The translations under genes and the position numbers were made by a program. A model generated the notes under the pieces. That model saw only the letters and a program-made list of their open reading frames with translations, ran no database searches and was not told the origin of the DNA. A DNA stretch of 37,121 nucleotides from a virus. The stretch's first letter is position 1, and each line of letters opens with the position of its first letter. Below, piece after piece: positions 6,188 through 29,049 of the stretch. The stretch is taken from IMG/VR virus record IMGVR_UViG_3300024348_000121, positions 1-37,121 of that record. One strand, written 5' to 3'.

Positions 6188-6724
6188 ATGAGCGAAATAG
6201 AGCCAGCAGTACATTTTGATCGCATGAATAGGGTTGTGGAAGAGCTTTTAAAGGGCAATTCAGCAACTCAGATAGCCACGCTTACAGGATTCTCACGCAA
6301 AGAAGTTTTAGAGTACGTTGATGAATGGAAGTCTGTTGTTCATAACGACAGCAATATTCGTGACCGTGCAAGAGAGGCCATATCTGGCGCAGACCAGCAC
6401 TACGCAATGCTGATAAAAGAAGCTTGGAAAACGGTAGAAGATGCAGACACACAGGGCCAGCTAAGCGTAAAGGCAGGAGCTTTAAAGTTAATCGCAGATA
6501 TAGAAACAAAAAGAATAGCAATGCTACAGTCAATCGGCGTGTTAGAAAACACTCAGATAGCATCTCAGATTGCAGAGACAGAGCGTAAGCAGGAGATCTT
6601 GGTTGGCATATTAAAAGAAGTAACCGCATCTTGTCCTAAATGCAAAATGGATGTTGCAAAAAGACTTTCTCAGATTACAGGAATTGTTGAAGCAATTGTA
6701 ATTGAGGACGCTGATGTCGTTTGA
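6188..6724 (+). CDS. Probable terminase small subunit
   Basis: A 178-residue protein directly upstream of the large terminase and overlapping it by 11 bases. The N-terminus has an HTH-like stretch (GNSATQIATLTGFSRKEVLEY), the centre is helical (residues about 60-140), and the C-terminus has a CxxC (SCPKCKMDV). Small terminases bind the packaging site through such HTHs and form rings with a helical oligomerisation core. The call is from position plus HTH; the CxxC is not typical. Confidence 0.6.
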   Translation: MSEIEPAVHFDRMNRVVEELLKGNSATQIATLTGFSRKEVLEYVDEWKSVVHNDSNIRDRAREAISGADQHYAMLIKEAWKTVEDADTQGQLSVKAGALKLIADIETKRIAMLQSIGVLENTQIASQIAETERKQEILVGILKEVTASCPKCKMDVAKRLSQITGIVEAIVIEDADVV

Positions 6725-8516
6725 TTTTTCAGATTTAATTGATATTTTAGATGGCGAAGAGTTTGAAGAAAAGCCTGTTGATCTTAGAACATTTGTTAAC
6801 GATCCAAACTATCTAGGACTACCACCTCTTTCAGAATACCAGTACCTTCTGATTGAAAAAAGCTCTCAGATATACAAAGAGTCAACACTAAAGAAGTTGT
6901 TTGGAGAAGACGAAGGTGCAATAAGATTTAAGCAGACAGCAAATGAAGTAGTTGCACAACTTGGCAAAGGTTCAGGAAAAGATTACTGCTCAACAATTGC
7001 AGTTGCATATATAGTATATTTACTATTGTGTTTAAAAGACCCAGCAACATATTATGGAAAGCCCCCAGGAGATTCTATTGATATTATTAATATTGCTATT
7101 AACTCACAACAGGCAAACAATGTATTCTTTAAAGGATTTAAAAGTAGAATAGATAAGTCTCCATGGTTTATAGGGAAATATTATTCAAAGGCTTCTGAAA
7201 TTCAATTCAGTAAAGCAATAACAGTACACTCAGGTCACTCAGAAAGAGAAGCCTGGGAAGGATATAACGTTATTGTTGTTATTCTTGATGAAATTTCTGG
7301 CTTTGCAATTGAAAATACGACGGGCCACGATCAAGCAAAAACAGGTAGTGCGGTGTATGATATGTATAGGGCATCAGTAGACTCACGTTTCCCAGACTTT
7401 GGAAAGGTTATTTTGCTATCGTTCCCTAGATTTAAAAATGACTATATTCAGCAAAGGTACGACGCTGTAATTGGAGAAAAAGAAACTGTAATTAGAGATC
7501 ACAAATTTAAGATGTATGAGGAGTTACCAGATGGAACTGAAGGTAATGAGTTTGAGATTCAATGGGAAGAAGATCATATTGTATCTTACAAAATACCTAA
7601 AGTTTATGCTCTTAAACGCCCAACTTGGGAAGTTAATCCAGTTAGAAAAATTGACGATTTTAAAACAGCCTTCTATACAAACCCAACAGATGCTCTTTCA
7701 AGATTTGCTTGCATGCCACCAGACGCAATTGACGCATTCTTTAAGTCAAGAGAAAAAGTAGAAAAAGCATTTAATGTGGGAGCAATTGCCGTAGACAACT
7801 TCGGCAGACTTGAAGAGTGGTTTTTGCCAGACCCAGATAAAAAATATTATATACACGTAGACTTGGCACAGAAGCATGACCATTGTGCAGTAACGATGGC
7901 TCATGTAAACAAATGGGTTAACGTAAAGGTAACAAATACAATCTCACAGCCCGCCCCTATTGTAGAGATAGACGCAGTTAGATATTGGACTCCTACACCA
8001 GACAAGTCTGTTGACTTTACAGAAGTTAAAGACTACATTCTTTCTCTTAAAACTAGAGGCTTTAATATAGCAATATGTACTTTTGACAGATGGAACTCTC
8101 ATGATATGATGCAACAACTAAAACAATATGGCATCAATACAGAGATTCTGTCTGTCGCTAAAAAACACTATGATGATATGGCAATGATTGTGGCGGAAGA
8201 AAGACTAATAGGGCCGCACATACCATTGCTTATAGATGAACTATGTCAACTTAGAATCATGAGAGACAAGGTTGACCACCCTAGAAAGGGGTCAAAAGAC
8301 TTGGCGGATGCTACTTGTGGAGCTATATTTAATTCAATTAGTAGAACTAGATTTGATAATAATCAAGAAATAAATGTACATACTTATGAATCAATGAGCT
8401 ATGACAATGACTTTGGGGACAAGGATGACCCAGATACAACATCCTATAATCTGATCAGGGCACCAAGAATGCCCCAGGACTTAAGAGAAGCAATGGACAG
8501 GATGCAAATAATATGA
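6714..8516 (+). CDS. Terminase large subunit
   Basis: A 600-residue packaging motor. N-terminal ATPase: Walker A-like QLGKGSGKD around residue 85, Walker B VIVVILDEISG around 190. C-terminal RNase-H nuclease: YYIHVDLAQKHDH near 380, CTFDRWNSHDM near 465, and DLADATCGAIFNS near 535. It pumps DNA into the prohead and cuts concatemers. ATG 6714 (MSFDFSDLIDIL) is preferred over an in-frame TTG at 6702. Its stop overlaps the next start. No portal gene follows, which is unusual. Confidence 0.92.
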   Translation: MSFDFSDLIDILDGEEFEEKPVDLRTFVNDPNYLGLPPLSEYQYLLIEKSSQIYKESTLKKLFGEDEGAIRFKQTANEVVAQLGKGSGKDYCSTIAVAYIVYLLLCLKDPATYYGKPPGDSIDIINIAINSQQANNVFFKGFKSRIDKSPWFIGKYYSKASEIQFSKAITVHSGHSEREAWEGYNVIVVILDEISGFAIENTTGHDQAKTGSAVYDMYRASVDSRFPDFGKVILLSFPRFKNDYIQQRYDAVIGEKETVIRDHKFKMYEELPDGTEGNEFEIQWEEDHIVSYKIPKVYALKRPTWEVNPVRKIDDFKTAFYTNPTDALSRFACMPPDAIDAFFKSREKVEKAFNVGAIAVDNFGRLEEWFLPDPDKKYYIHVDLAQKHDHCAVTMAHVNKWVNVKVTNTISQPAPIVEIDAVRYWTPTPDKSVDFTEVKDYILSLKTRGFNIAICTFDRWNSHDMMQQLKQYGINTEILSVAKKHYDDMAMIVAEERLIGPHIPLLIDELCQLRIMRDKVDHPRKGSKDLADATCGAIFNSISRTRFDNNQEINVHTYESMSYDNDFGDKDDPDTTSYNLIRAPRMPQDLREAMDRMQII

Positions 8517-9764: not shown

Positions 9765-9828
9765 ATATTACATATATAAAATAATTCAAAAATTTAAAAA
9801 GAAAAAAAAGAATAGGTTTATATACTAA
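9751..9828 (+). CDS. Possible 25-residue basic peptide
   Basis: A GTG-started frame (MIVIKYYIYKIIQKFK then KKKKNRFIY) placed 8 bases after AAAAGGAG, overlapping the end of the SGNH gene and ending in a TAATG overlap with the carbamoyltransferase start. The hydrophobic N-half and polylysine tail suggest membrane association. The good ribosome site and exact coupling argue for translation; it may mainly serve to couple translation of the next gene, which has no Shine-Dalgarno of its own. Confidence 0.35.
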   Translation: MIVIKYYIYKIIQKFKKKKKNRFIY

Positions 9829-11249
9829 TGAGAATATTAGGAATTAATGAGACATCTCATGATGCCTCCGTGTCTTTAATAGAGGACGGAAAGGTATTAT
9901 TTGCAGGTCATGCAGAGAGATATAGCAAGCAAAAAAATGATTGGTATATCAATGATAGTTTAGTTAATGATGCTTTGTCTTACGGCCTACCTGATGCTGT
10001 AGCCTACTACGAGAAACCCCTTCTGAAGGCCTCTAGGCTGCTTGTAAGAGGTGGTTCAGGTGAATGGAACCCAAGGTTTAAGATCGACGGGATACCCCGT
10101 AAATCATTTGGCCACCACTACTCCCATGCATCAGCAGGATATTACACGAGTTCATTTAACGATGCCGCTATAGTGGTTCTAGATGCCATAGGAGAATATA
10201 ACACTTCTACAATATGGACTGGCGAAAGTGATAAGATTAAACTAAAGTATAAGCAAAACTACCCAGTTAGTTTTGGATTATTCTATTCGGCATTTACTCA
10301 GCTAATAGGGCTAATGCCAAACCAGGAAGAATATATTATGATGGGCATGGCCGCATACGGAGATTGGACCAAATACTATAAAAAGGTTAACGACTATTTC
10401 CCTTCATATACTAGCCAAAAATATAATTTTCATAAAGGAATCACAGATTGGGGCTGGGTTTCAGAAGAAGATAAGTTTGACATTGCAGCCGCAGCACAAA
10501 TAGTTTACGAACAAAGACTTAACGATTTTATGCGTATGGCAAAGTCGCTAACTGGCAAAAATAACTTGGTGTTCATGGGTGGATGCGCTCTAAACTCTTC
10601 AGCAAATACTCTGCTATGGAAAATCTTTGATATGATTTGGATTATGCCAAACCCTGGGGATGCTGGAAGCTCGTTAGGAGCAGCAGCAGCAATGTATGGA
10701 AAACATATTGAATGGAAAGATCCTTACCTTGGCCACGATCTTGGCGGGGAATATCCAGTTCAAAAAATAATTGACGGCATACTTAAAGATGGAATTGTAG
10801 CAGTTGCAAGTGGAAGAGCTGAATATGGACCCAGAGCATTAGGAAACAGAAGTATACTAGCGGATCCAAGAGATAGAAGCATTAAGGATAAAGTAAACAA
10901 TATCAAACAGCGTGAGCTGTTTAGGCCGTTTGCACCAGTTGTTATGGAAGAGTGTGCGTCTAAATGGTTTGAAATGGACTTTACATCTCCTTACATGCAA
11001 TACACTGTAAAGTGTTTGCAGCCAGAAAAGATTCCTTCTGTTGTTCATATAGATGGCACATCAAGAGTTCAAACTGTAAATAAGGATCAGCACAGAGGCC
11101 TTTGGAGAGTTTTAAATAAATTCTATCTGCAGACTGGGGTTCCAGTTCTTTTAAATACAAGCCTAAATATAAAAGGTCAGCCACTACTTAACGATGAAAA
11201 TGATATTAAAGATTGGGAATCTATGTATAACACAAAGGTAATTAGATAA
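9828..11249 (+). CDS. NodU/CmcH/TobZ-family O-carbamoyltransferase
   Basis: A 473-residue protein with both domains of the family. N-terminal Kae1/YgjD-like ATPase: MRILGINETSHDASVSLIED, the metal-binding HHYSHASAGYYTS, VVLDAIGEY, the EEYIMMGMAAYG motif and FMGGCALN. C-terminal YrdC-like part: GRAEYGPRALGNRSILADPR, RELFRPFAPVVM and the end-domain VPVLLNTSLNIKGQP. Family members transfer a carbamoyl group from carbamoyl phosphate to hydroxyl groups of antibiotics, Nod factors or, in some phages, hydroxymethylated bases. It is shorter than many relatives. SGNH-like genes lie on both sides; the substrate is unknown. Confidence 0.88.
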   Translation: MRILGINETSHDASVSLIEDGKVLFAGHAERYSKQKNDWYINDSLVNDALSYGLPDAVAYYEKPLLKASRLLVRGGSGEWNPRFKIDGIPRKSFGHHYSHASAGYYTSSFNDAAIVVLDAIGEYNTSTIWTGESDKIKLKYKQNYPVSFGLFYSAFTQLIGLMPNQEEYIMMGMAAYGDWTKYYKKVNDYFPSYTSQKYNFHKGITDWGWVSEEDKFDIAAAAQIVYEQRLNDFMRMAKSLTGKNNLVFMGGCALNSSANTLLWKIFDMIWIMPNPGDAGSSLGAAAAMYGKHIEWKDPYLGHDLGGEYPVQKIIDGILKDGIVAVASGRAEYGPRALGNRSILADPRDRSIKDKVNNIKQRELFRPFAPVVMEECASKWFEMDFTSPYMQYTVKCLQPEKIPSVVHIDGTSRVQTVNKDQHRGLWRVLNKFYLQTGVPVLLNTSLNIKGQPLLNDENDIKDWESMYNTKVIR

Positions 11250-19513: not shown

Positions 19514-19747
19514 TTGTTGTATTTAACGGAGAAAGGCGTTGAGATTTTTATCAAAAGATCTCAATCAAAAACACAGGAATCGTTTTGGAACAACTACGAT
19601 CTTGTTATATGGAAAAAAGATAACGGCGGCTATACATCTATCAATGGAATGTACAGACAAAATGCTTGGGGCAAAGTAGAAAAGTTTTCTATAGGCCAAG
19701 AAGGAATCTGGAAGCTGTCTAAAAAATATGTCAAACATTTTAAATGA
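19514..19747 (+). CDS. Small hypothetical protein (TTG start)
   Basis: A 77-residue frame beginning at TTG 19514 or 19517 after AAAAGG; no in-frame ATG lies nearby, so the start is uncertain. It contains W-N-N-Y-D-L-V-I-W-K-K-D-N-G-G-Y and ends KKYVKHFK: aromatic, basic, probably beta-rich. It overlaps the WhiB start by 20 bases. No family recognised. Confidence 0.55.
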   Translation: MLYLTEKGVEIFIKRSQSKTQESFWNNYDLVIWKKDNGGYTSINGMYRQNAWGKVEKFSIGQEGIWKLSKKYVKHFK

Positions 19748-20039
19748 TTTAGGTATAGATAAAGAAGATGTAAAGTGGTATGACCTTGCCCTATGCAAGG
19801 GGATGGACACTAATTTATTTTTTGATAAATATGAGTCTGATATAAACATAGCAAAAAACATTGATGAGGCTTGCTTGTCTTGCCCAGTAATTAAAATTTG
19901 CCATGATGAAGGTGTTGCAAATAGTGACTATGGAATCTGGGGCGGAGTTTACTTAAGCTCAGGATCATTAGATAAGTCTAAGAACGCACATAAAACAAAA
20001 GATGTGTGGAAGCGTATAAAGGAAAAGCATGTTTATTGA
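19728..20039 (+). CDS. whiB: WhiB-family iron-sulfur regulator
   Basis: A 103-residue protein with the four-Cys WhiB layout: C in LALCKGMD, then CLSCPVIKIC (C-x2-C-x5-C), and the GIWGGVYL beta-turn motif. These proteins carry a 4Fe-4S cluster and bind region 4 of the primary sigma factor. They are essentially restricted to Actinobacteria and their phages, so this gene is the best host marker in the window. It lies between two small overlapping genes. It may redirect host transcription or answer redox change. Confidence 0.92.
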   Translation: MSNILNDLGIDKEDVKWYDLALCKGMDTNLFFDKYESDINIAKNIDEACLSCPVIKICHDEGVANSDYGIWGGVYLSSGSLDKSKNAHKTKDVWKRIKEKHVY

Positions 20040-21702: not shown

Positions 21703-21708
21703 TATACT
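21703..21708 (+). promoter_or_regulatory. Leaderless promoter of the proteasome-like gene
   Basis: TATACT, AATAAT, then ATG at 21715: six bases. Confidence 0.6.
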
Positions 21709-21714
21709 AATAAT

Positions 21715-22272
21715 ATGACTTGTATTGTTGCTATTGCCCAAAATGGTGTTGTTTACATGGGATCAGACCATGCCGCATCAGACGACAAGACTGGTTGGAT
21801 CTTATCAAGAAAAGAGCCAAAAGTTTTTAAGGTTGGACAGTACGGAGTTGCTTTTACAGATTCCTTTCGCATGGGTCAAATTCTTCAGTATATGTGGACG
21901 CCACCCAAATACACTCCAACAAAAACTAACTCAGGTTTAGATAAGTTTATGAGAACTAAGTTTGTTGATTCAGTTAAAGCGGCATTCAAAGATAATGGAT
22001 ACGGAAGTGTAGGATCTTCATCAGAAGAAGACACTGGCGGAATTTTTATAGTTGGAGTATGCGGTAGAATATTTACCATTGATGAAGACTTTCATGTTGG
22101 AGAAAACATTGTAAACTATATGGCAGAAGGCAGTGGTGGAATGATAGCCCTAGGAGCTTTATACGCTACCAAGAATCAGAAGAATCCACGCTTACGACTA
22201 AAGGCGGCATTAGAAGCAGCAACTGAGTTTAATATGAGCGTAGCAGCACCCTATACATATATCCAAGTTTAG
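21715..22272 (+). CDS. Proteasome-beta/HslV-like Ntn hydrolase
   Basis: A 185-residue protein. It starts MTCIVAIAQNGVVYMGSDHA, so Thr2 would be the N-terminal nucleophile once Met is removed, with Asp18, Lys36 (KEPKVFKVG) and the GSGG motif (AEGSGGMIALGALYA) completing the site, as in HslV and proteasome beta subunits. The size fits HslV. Such subunits need an ATPase (HslU or Mpa/ARC); none is present in the window. It might act alone, replace a host subunit, or process capsid proteins. The C-terminus (AAPYTYIQV) could be a docking tail. Confidence 0.78.
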   Translation: MTCIVAIAQNGVVYMGSDHAASDDKTGWILSRKEPKVFKVGQYGVAFTDSFRMGQILQYMWTPPKYTPTKTNSGLDKFMRTKFVDSVKAAFKDNGYGSVGSSSEEDTGGIFIVGVCGRIFTIDEDFHVGENIVNYMAEGSGGMIALGALYATKNQKNPRLRLKAALEAATEFNMSVAAPYTYIQV

Positions 22273-22864: not shown

Positions 22865-23998
22865 ATGACTAAAAAACTAATAACTGCATTACTATCACTA
22901 TCACTTGCACTACCTCTAGCAGCATATACTGCTAACGCCGCACCATTGGCACCCTCAGTTGCAATCATCGATACAGGTATTGACGATACTTTACCATCAT
23001 TCCAAGGTAAGATTGTAACTCAAGTTTGTATATTGGAATTTACTTTATGTCCAAATGGAACATCATTTGAAGAAAGCCCTCGTGCTGCTGTAGTTCCTGC
23101 AAGCATTATTAATTTAAATGGCTTTGAGCACGGAACACAAATGGCTTCCACATTGCTATTATCTAACCCAAATCTAAATATTGTGTTTATTAGAATTGTG
23201 GGCAATAATGCAACAGGAGGAAGAATTAATCCAACTGCTTCTGCCGTAGATAAAGCTTTAGAGTGGGTAAAAAACAACTCATCAAAGTATAATATTCAGG
23301 CCGTAACAATGGCACAAGGACACCACAACTTGGGTGCTCCAGGAACAGATTATTGCCCAAAGACACCAACTACAGAGCAGGCAATTAAAGATCTTATTTC
23401 AATTAATGTAGCAACATTCTTTGCTGTAGGAAACGGTAAGGACTATGCTCGCATTGATTGGCCTTCATGCATCCCTTCTTCAATTTCAGTAGGTGCTGTT
23501 GACAGGGGAAATCTTGTTGCAAGCAATAGCAATAGCGACACTTTACTAGACTTTTACGCCGCTGGATATGTTACTGTGGCATCTCCAGGTAATATAATGA
23601 AAAATATTGCAGGTTCATCTGCAGCAACACAATCTGCAGCAGGACTATGGTTGGCCTTAAGATCATCAAAGCCTTCATACACATACAATCAGGCAATGGA
23701 TGCTTTTAAAAATACAGCATCACCAGCACCTGGAAGAGCGGGAACATTTGCAAAGCTTATTAATTTAAGTGCTGCTCTATCATACATGCCAACACAGGCT
23801 GGACCAACTGCAGCAGAAACCGCAGCAGCCCAAGCAGCAGCCCAAGCAGCAGCACAGGCAGCAGCACAGGCAGCATTAAAAGTACAAGTAGATGCTGCAT
23901 TGTTAGCAGCACAGGCGGAATACGATGCATCAGTAAAGATAGCAGCAGATAAACTTGCTGCAACTAGAGCAACATGGTTGGCAAAGCTTAATGGCTGA
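22865..23998 (+). CDS. Secreted subtilisin-like serine protease with Ala-rich tail
   Basis: A 377-residue protein. Sec signal MTKKLITALLSLSLALPLAA ending TANAA (about residue 26). Subtilisin (S8) triad: Asp36 in AIIDTGID, His89 in FEHGTQMAS, Ser252 in AGSSAATQSAAG (GSS instead of the usual GTS); the oxyanion Asn is in FFAVGNGKD. The last 80 residues are an alanine-rich coil (AAAQAAAQAAAQAALKVQVD). Secreted proteases are unusual in phages; this one may mature surface proteins or cut host envelope. Its stop overlaps the next start. Confidence 0.85.
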   Translation: MTKKLITALLSLSLALPLAAYTANAAPLAPSVAIIDTGIDDTLPSFQGKIVTQVCILEFTLCPNGTSFEESPRAAVVPASIINLNGFEHGTQMASTLLLSNPNLNIVFIRIVGNNATGGRINPTASAVDKALEWVKNNSSKYNIQAVTMAQGHHNLGAPGTDYCPKTPTTEQAIKDLISINVATFFAVGNGKDYARIDWPSCIPSSISVGAVDRGNLVASNSNSDTLLDFYAAGYVTVASPGNIMKNIAGSSAATQSAAGLWLALRSSKPSYTYNQAMDAFKNTASPAPGRAGTFAKLINLSAALSYMPTQAGPTAAETAAAQAAAQAAAQAAAQAALKVQVDAALLAAQAEYDASVKIAADKLAATRATWLAKLNG

Positions 23999-27914: not shown

Positions 27915-28004
27915 GTGTGTAGAGAATGCGGTAGTTGTACCAAAGAGCATTATCCAACAATAGATGATGCTGTTGATAAAGTATTGGATAGCACAATAAT
28001 ATGA
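27915..28004 (+). CDS. Tiny Cys-rich protein (GTG start)
   Basis: A 29-residue protein starting MCRECGSCTKEHYP (C-x2-C-x2-C), GTG start two bases after the previous stop, and overlapping the AhpC start (ATGA). The CxxCxxC layout and operon position beside AhpC suggest a metal or redox peptide. Confidence 0.5.
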   Translation: MCRECGSCTKEHYPTIDDAVDKVLDSTII

Positions 28005-28537
28005 AAACAGTAGGAGAAAAGTTAGGCAACTTTGCCGTAACAGGCGTAAAGCCAGGAGCATTATCTTATGAAGATAGCTCATTTGAAGTAATCACACAAG
28101 ACTCATTTCCAGGTAAATGGAAGATAATTGCTTTCTATCCAAAGGACTTTACATTTGTATGTCCAACAGAGATTGTTGCGTATGATGCTTTGGTAAATGA
28201 TTTTAATGATAGAGATACTGTTTTGCTTACAGGATCTGTAGATAATGAATTTTGTAAAATTGCATGGAGAAATGCACATGATGATTTAAAGAAGACGAAC
28301 TCATGGTCATTTGCAGATACAGCACATCAGCTGGCTAACGATCTAGGCGTACACCACTCATCTGGAGTCACATATCGTGCTACATTTATTGTAGACCCAG
28401 ATAATATCATTCAGCATGTAACATGCAACAACCTAGATGTAGGTCGTAATGCAGATGAAGCTTTGCGTGTATTAGATGCATTACAGACAGGCGAGCTGTG
28501 TGCATGCAATAGACCACTCGGAGGAGAAACTCTATAA
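28001..28537 (+). CDS. ahpC: AhpC-type peroxiredoxin
   Basis: A 178-residue peroxiredoxin. Peroxidatic Cys54 is in TFVCPTE; a C-terminal Cys pair in GELCACNRPLGG provides the resolving Cys, as in actinobacterial AhpC. It reduces hydrogen peroxide and organic peroxides. It is recycled by AhpD (next gene) and/or thioredoxin (24194). The gene is coupled to a tiny Cys-rich peptide before it and to AhpD after it. Confidence 0.93.
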   Translation: MKTVGEKLGNFAVTGVKPGALSYEDSSFEVITQDSFPGKWKIIAFYPKDFTFVCPTEIVAYDALVNDFNDRDTVLLTGSVDNEFCKIAWRNAHDDLKKTNSWSFADTAHQLANDLGVHHSSGVTYRATFIVDPDNIIQHVTCNNLDVGRNADEALRVLDALQTGELCACNRPLGGETL

Positions 28538-29049
28538 TGTTATGGGTAGACCAGCTTAAGGACTCTCTTCCAGAGTATGCTAAGGACATCAAATTAAATC
28601 TTGATGCTGTTATTAATAGATCAACTATTGATCCCGAGCAGGCCACATATCTTTCAATAGCAGCAGCATTTTCAACAGGTAATGCTAAACTGCTTACTTT
28701 TATAGTTGCGAATGCAACTGACGAAGTTGAAAAAAATGCAGCCCTTACAGCTGGCGCTATCATGGCACAAAATAATGTTTGGTATCCATTTATTGAAATG
28801 GCTGATGATCCCAATCTAAAAGGTTTGCCAGCGCAATTAAGAATGAATGCAATTGCAACACATGGCGGAACAACTAAAGCTAAATTTGAAGCATATTCAT
28901 TGGCATCATCTATTGTAGGTAAATGTCACTTCTGTGTTAAAGCACACTATGAAACACTTAAAGAAGAAGGATATACAGTAGAACAGCTAAGGGATATTGG
29001 CAGAATTTCTGCAACAATAAATGCTTTATCAAAGATACTTTCTGCATAA
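28537..29049 (+). CDS. ahpD: AhpD-type alkylhydroperoxidase
   Basis: A 170-residue protein with the CxxC...H site GKCHFCVKAHYETL, preceded by a helical body (LSIAAAFSTGNAKLL) typical of AhpD. In mycobacteria AhpD passes electrons from a lipoylated partner to AhpC. It begins on the last base of the AhpC stop, the usual ahpC-ahpD order in Actinobacteria, so the phage pair was probably taken from such a host. Confidence 0.9.
   Translation: MLWVDQLKDSLPEYAKDIKLNLDAVINRSTIDPEQATYLSIAAAFSTGNAKLLTFIVANATDEVEKNAALTAGAIMAQNNVWYPFIEMADDPNLKGLPAQLRMNAIATHGGTTKAKFEAYSLASSIVGKCHFCVKAHYETLKEEGYTVEQLRDIGRISATINALSKILSA

Follow-up and report, generated by a model that had tools for sequence, protein, structure and literature searches.

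A predicted AAH-type proteasome-like hydrolase, encoded without an unfoldase, is a core gene of a probable actinophage lineage

Introduction

What does a proteasome-like threonine hydrolase do in a phage that carries no unfoldase of its own? Partnerless proteasome-like proteins are a recognised gap. In their 2021 survey, Fuchs, Alva and Lupas named 22 new proteasome homologs, almost none of them with a function (PMC8665760). AAH is described there as commonest in Actinobacteria and as also occurring in Alphaproteobacteria and phages. Its genomic context held nothing that pointed to function, no co-occurring AAA+ protein was reported for AAH-type homologs, no Actinobacteria-specific phages with AAH were found, and nothing indicated that phages transmit AAH in Actinobacteria (PMC8665760). 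Beyond that survey and a note that HslV is present without HslU in jumbo phages (PMC7823757), our literature search returned no later work on such homologs in phages. Here we analyse a gene of this kind in a 37,121-nt stretch of viral DNA, hereafter the window (Table 1).

Table 1. Positions of the features discussed in the window.
Feature	Position	Strand	Remarks
Six 2-oxoglutarate/Fe(II) oxygenase-like ORFs	2521, 14944, 15591, 20343, 25853, 30672	15591 on -	
Large terminase subunit	6702..8516	+	About 64% identity to Streptomyces phages, e.g. Gilson; Faust (Stanwilliamsviridae) 63%
Phage carbamoyltransferase	9828..11249	+	PF02543/PF16861; possibly DNA or metabolite modification
WhiB-like transcription factor	19728..20039	+	PF02467, E 5e-11; conserved neighbour, actinophage marker
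-10-like hexamer TATACT	21703..21708	+	Exactly 6 nt before the ATG of the AAH gene
Putative AAH-type proteasome-like threonine hydrolase	21715..22272	+	ATG start, TAG stop; 185 aa; Thr2, Asp18, Lys36, GSGG 139-142
Secreted-looking subtilase	22865..23998	+	PF00082, E 6e-17; own leaderless-type promoter predicted
Thioredoxin	24194		
AhpC-type peroxiredoxin, then AhpD-like protein	28001..29049	+	PF00578, PF02627

Family, active site and fold

A profile search matched the 185-aa product to PHROG 1040, 'peptidase HslV family' (E 4e-18). The Pfam Proteasome model scored below its cut-off (E 0.12), so the gene would be missed if Pfam's Proteasome family were used alone. An earlier note, made from the letters of the DNA, had called the protein a stand-alone proteasome/HslV-like threonine hydrolase with Thr2, Asp18, Lys36 and a GSGG motif. 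All of these residues are at the positions that it gave (the motif being Gly139-Ser140-Gly141-Gly142), and the fold, the PHROG match, the Thr/Asp/Lys set and the lack of an own unfoldase bear out its reading.

Relatives of the protein were found by tblastn in 178 phage records, including phages of Gammaproteobacteria (Enterobacteria, Vibrio) and Firmicutes, and by a pattern scan of IMG/VR in 331 stretches, with hundreds in wider scans; narrower alignments gave usable patterns for these searches, a wide nine-member phage alignment none. A scan of bacterial genomes returned 112 chromosomal relatives, and the 80 of these that were listed come mostly from Frankia, Streptomyces, Rhizobium, Azospirillum and their kin. 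This taxonomic distribution is the signature of AAH, and the length of the protein, the presence of helix H2 and the absence of a C-terminal helix agree with it. We therefore infer from taxonomy, length and structure that the protein is a member of AAH, a known but uncharacterised kind, and not a host proteasome subunit. One phage relative is considerably longer: in a Pseudoalteromonas phage (contig L085, 3001-4167) an AAH-like domain is fused to some 200 additional residues at its C-terminus, giving 388 aa in total.

The active site is strongly conserved. In an alignment of 115 members below 90% identity, drawn from phages, viral contigs and bacteria, Thr2 is present in 114 and replaced by Ser in the remaining one, and Asp18, Lys36, Ser50, Gly139 and Gly141 are invariant. 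Median dN/dS against 79 close relatives is about 0.03, an approximate value since dS is near saturation. With the many viral relatives, the PHROG match and the conserved residues, this shows that the ORF did not arise by chance. Position 140, the equivalent of proteasome Ser129, is Ser in the window, as in 17 members, and Cys in 94, whilst the position expected to match Gly47 of the proteasome mostly carries Ser, Thr or Asp in the family; the site thus differs in detail from that of the proteasome.

The AlphaFold (AF2) model, built from a 98-row alignment, has a pLDDT of 94.5 and a pTM of 0.90, with helices at 51-60, 75-93, 142-151 and 158-172 and a last strand at 180-184. It is a proteasome fold over its full length (Z 17-21 to BPH, HslV and PrcB). 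Foldseek and VIA-align ranked BPH first (Z 20.6, 2.2 A over 167 residues), then HslV (Z about 19) and bacterial PrcB (about 18), and a PDB sequence profile search also placed BPH at the top. The model shows the compact subunit of AAH and group I homologs, with H1-H4, no S12/H5, no propeptide and Thr directly after Met. The earlier note had named an Ntn fold lacking the nucleophile Thr, or a closer likeness to a non-protease Ntn hydrolase, as the outcome that would overturn it; instead, residue 2 of the model is aligned with the catalytic Thr1 at the head of the chain, both in BPH and in many chains of HslV and of beta subunits.

The proteasome fold does not by itself fix the reaction, since connectase, a relative with this fold, is a monomeric ligase (PMC8665760). 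With that precedent, the AAH protein might be a specific, non-degradative hydrolase or ligase that trims or joins one host or phage protein, counter-defence included. An invariant SFRMGQ-type motif (50-55) at the start of helix 1, with Ser50 and Arg52, is a signature peculiar to this family and is consistent with such a role. However, the model lacks the two-helix insertion of connectase, the PADLOC defence-system models gave no match for the protein, and we regard this explanation as distinctly improbable.

Host lineage, core status and phylogeny

The window is very probably from an actinophage, judging by its WhiB-like gene, a kind described as an actinophage marker (PMC10202952), and by the likeness of its terminase to those of Streptomyces phages. 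A freshwater origin is suggested by resemblance to AT-rich actinophages in the literature rather than by the source record.

Loci picked by AAH similarity would bias a count of conservation, and therefore WhiB was used as an independent seed. The AAH gene is present in all 70 WhiB-seeded loci with room downstream. Its median identity there is 92%, against 77% for WhiB and 54-82% for the other neighbours tested. Twelve relatives of 109-116 kb, whose similar lengths suggest that they are near-complete genomes, carry exactly one AAH copy each. AAH is thus the best-conserved gene of its neighbourhood and a core gene of this actinophage lineage. As the slowest-evolving gene of the region, always kept by this probably freshwater phage lineage, it evidently does something that these phages need.

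A maximum-likelihood tree of 128 rows, in which the long branches of jumbo and T5-like phages are unsure and the bootstrap is not fully settled, unites the window's group in a single clade (97/95) with a long stem and places all 16 actinobacterial chromosomal copies in the other part (98/82). The phage gene was therefore not copied recently from a host AAH gene. Some viral contigs (L249, L252 and L254) cluster with copies from Streptomyces or Actinomadura and have terminase or portal genes nearby, and the AAH gene of Streptomyces sp. SID3212 (contig L129, 3465-4013) precedes a terminase gene by 2.8 kb and a portal-type gene by 4.6 kb. Together these show that prophage-like AAH loci exist in Actinobacteria. 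No isolated actinophage with AAH was seen among the best 40 of 178 and the best 60 of 171 records. The actinophage and prophage copies update the 2021 statement that phage links of AAH were not seen in Actinobacteria (PMC8665760).

The same tree bears on the suggestion, made in the earlier note, that the protein replaces a host subunit. A subunit stolen from the host proteasome, whether to join the 20S particle or to poison it, would share this fold, and proteasomes are frequent in hosts of the phylum. However, the protein resembles BPH and HslV more closely than PrcB in both sequence and fold, it belongs to a separate family and a deep clade apart from every actinobacterial chromosomal copy, its catalytic residues are conserved, and the family extends to phages of Enterobacteria, Vibrio and Firmicutes. 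Moreover, 8 of the 9 AAH-carrying bacteria tested have proteasome or HslV genes of their own beside AAH. Replacement of a host subunit is thus not supported, and a stolen host subunit is very improbable. Membership of PrcB was rejected on two grounds: there is no propeptide, and each long relative has one proteasome-like gene by the AAH profile, which may miss a distant alpha subunit.

Absence of an unfoldase

The window contains no match to the AAA+ unfoldase models PF07724 and PF00004, in line with the earlier note, and the search that it proposed for an ATPase elsewhere in the genome gave none in the 12 relatives of 109-116 kb, although every control genome produced a match. Membership of HslUV was rejected on these results, which cover the phage genomes; a host HslU would lie outside them.

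A missing phage unfoldase, together with a fold typical of subunits that sit under an AAA+ ring, would also suit a protein that binds to a host AAA+ machine, be it Mpa/ARC, ClpX, ClpC or some other, and diverts the protein turnover of the host. The presence of a PF00227 protein in 199 of 247 genomes sampled from the actinobacterial class likewise favours docking, but many of the listed genomes of 1.0-1.5 Mb lack one, and the earlier note's assumption of a host proteasome is not secure for this phage. The family also occurs in phages of HslU hosts and of proteasome hosts alike, whose unfoldases differ, which argues against one specific partner, and the survey's lack of any co-occurring AAA+ for these homologs points the same way. 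We consider docking on a host AAA+ possible, if unlikely.

A promoter-like element

No Shine-Dalgarno sequence is found at the start of the AAH gene, and a -10-like hexamer stands immediately upstream (Table 1). The hexamer keeps its 6-nt spacing in all 80 close relatives, as TATACT in 63 and TACAAT in 17; these are related sequences, so the count measures conservation and not 80 independent cases. At that spacing it is found in none of 78 distant viral and none of 73 chromosomal AAH genes. Within the window, TANNNT lies exactly 6 nt before the ATG at 10 of 60 gene starts, compared with 26 of 920 ATGs overall, and the gene next to AAH also has an element of this type. By its sequence, the AAH gene looks like one transcribed as a leaderless mRNA from its own promoter-like element. 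TANNNT-6-ATG starts in the window include those at 6188, 13265, 19132, 21715, 22287, 22865, 26482, 30214 and 32865.

Context in other phages

Neighbours of AAH within the window's group are phage backbone genes. Around diverse viral AAH genes we find terminase subunits, portal, head-maturation protease, head morphogenesis and capsid families, and no conserved partner across distant phages beyond these head/packaging genes and HNH clusters. Twenty-six further viral contigs have a Phage_portal match, and in these the median distance between AAH and portal is 4.2 kb; in 16 of the 26 the distance is below 5 kb, where 5.8 would be expected (KS p 3e-6), and in 25 the two genes share a strand, AAH being mostly upstream. 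These statistics come from contigs that share ancestry, and many small-phage genes share a strand in any case. Of 78 viral loci, 37 carry a gene for terminase, portal, prohead protease or capsid at most about 4 kb from AAH. Outside the window's group, in smaller phages, AAH therefore clusters beside the packaging/head module, which is a lead and not a function; it is the first testable hint of one, where the 2021 survey reported none. This context is compatible with the earlier note's other suggestion, action on phage proteins.

The proximity to portal and to the head/packaging genes is what would be expected of a head-module peptidase acting in virion assembly, clearing or processing scaffold, portal or other head proteins. 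Against this, in the window's group AAH lies outside the head module, some 13 kb beyond the terminase gene, with an S78 match about 52 kb away (record G006). The gene is beside nucleotide-metabolism genes in Geobacillus virus E3 and in a T5-like phage of Yersinia. Furthermore, the upstream edge of the packaging module, upstream of terminase, is a usual place for accessory genes. A role in virion assembly is therefore rather improbable in our estimation. Identity with the prohead protease itself was rejected, all 12 long relatives having a separate S78 (PF04586) match.

Other genes of the window were recorded in passing (Table 1). The subtilase is a second peptidase near AAH and is present in 59 of 60 relatives, with a median identity of only 46%. 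The AhpC/AhpD-like antioxidant pair is variable (12 of 60 relatives). Six ORFs in 37 kb are oxygenase-like, an annotation made from sequence only.

Discussion

Taken together, the computed fold, conserved active site, family, core status, lack of an unfoldase gene and promoter-like element lead us to favour, with a probability of roughly 0.6, the reading that the AAH phage protein is an unfoldase-free ring peptidase with an N-terminal Thr, a core component that is independently transcribed. Removal of Met1 would leave Thr2 as the N-terminal nucleophile (Thr1), which Lys36 and Asp18 would activate as in the proteasome and HslV. The subunits would most likely form a closed ring barrel like those of BPH and HslV. 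Peptides and unfolded protein may enter its chamber unaided by any dedicated AAA+ partner, and hence independently of ATP, or by way of a borrowed host chaperone, and would be hydrolysed there during infection. Activity and oligomeric state are extrapolations here, since the literature that we searched contained no biochemically tested AAH protein.

More speculatively, and with low confidence, AAH could be a widespread phage-borne, self-compartmentalising, ATPase-free peptidase, often expressed with late or packaging functions, whose conserved role during infection is to clear or process unfolded capsid-related or host proteins. If the unfoldase-free reading is true, an unfoldase-free proteasome has been kept as a core phage gene. 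As an annotation the gene is ordinary; its interest, a moderate one, lies in its core status within a phage lineage and in the lead towards the head module.

Comparison with known systems

PPH, the phage-borne group I homolog, is a short phage form without helix H2 (PMC8665760). It has about 140 residues, whereas the window protein has 185 and a clear second helix (75-93), and membership of PPH was rejected accordingly. PHROG 1040 is a direct profile match, but a clustering label. HslV (ClpQ) resembles the protein in its fold, its Thr1/Asp17/Lys33 set and its GSG motif, with about 20% identity, yet the phage encodes no HslU. AAH itself agrees in taxonomic signature, in lacking a C-terminal H5 and a propeptide, in its conserved Thr/Asp/Lys and in occurring in both phages and bacteria. 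The window's clade differs from the chromosomal AAH copies in being deep and separate, and in consisting of a core actinophage gene with a leaderless-type promoter. The nearest solved fold is that of BPH, the beta-proteobacterial proteasome homologue (PDB 5ovs/5ovt/5ovu), in which Thr1 is aligned; BPH is a bacterial protein of about 22% identity to ours, and it is likewise supposed to work without a dedicated unfoldase.
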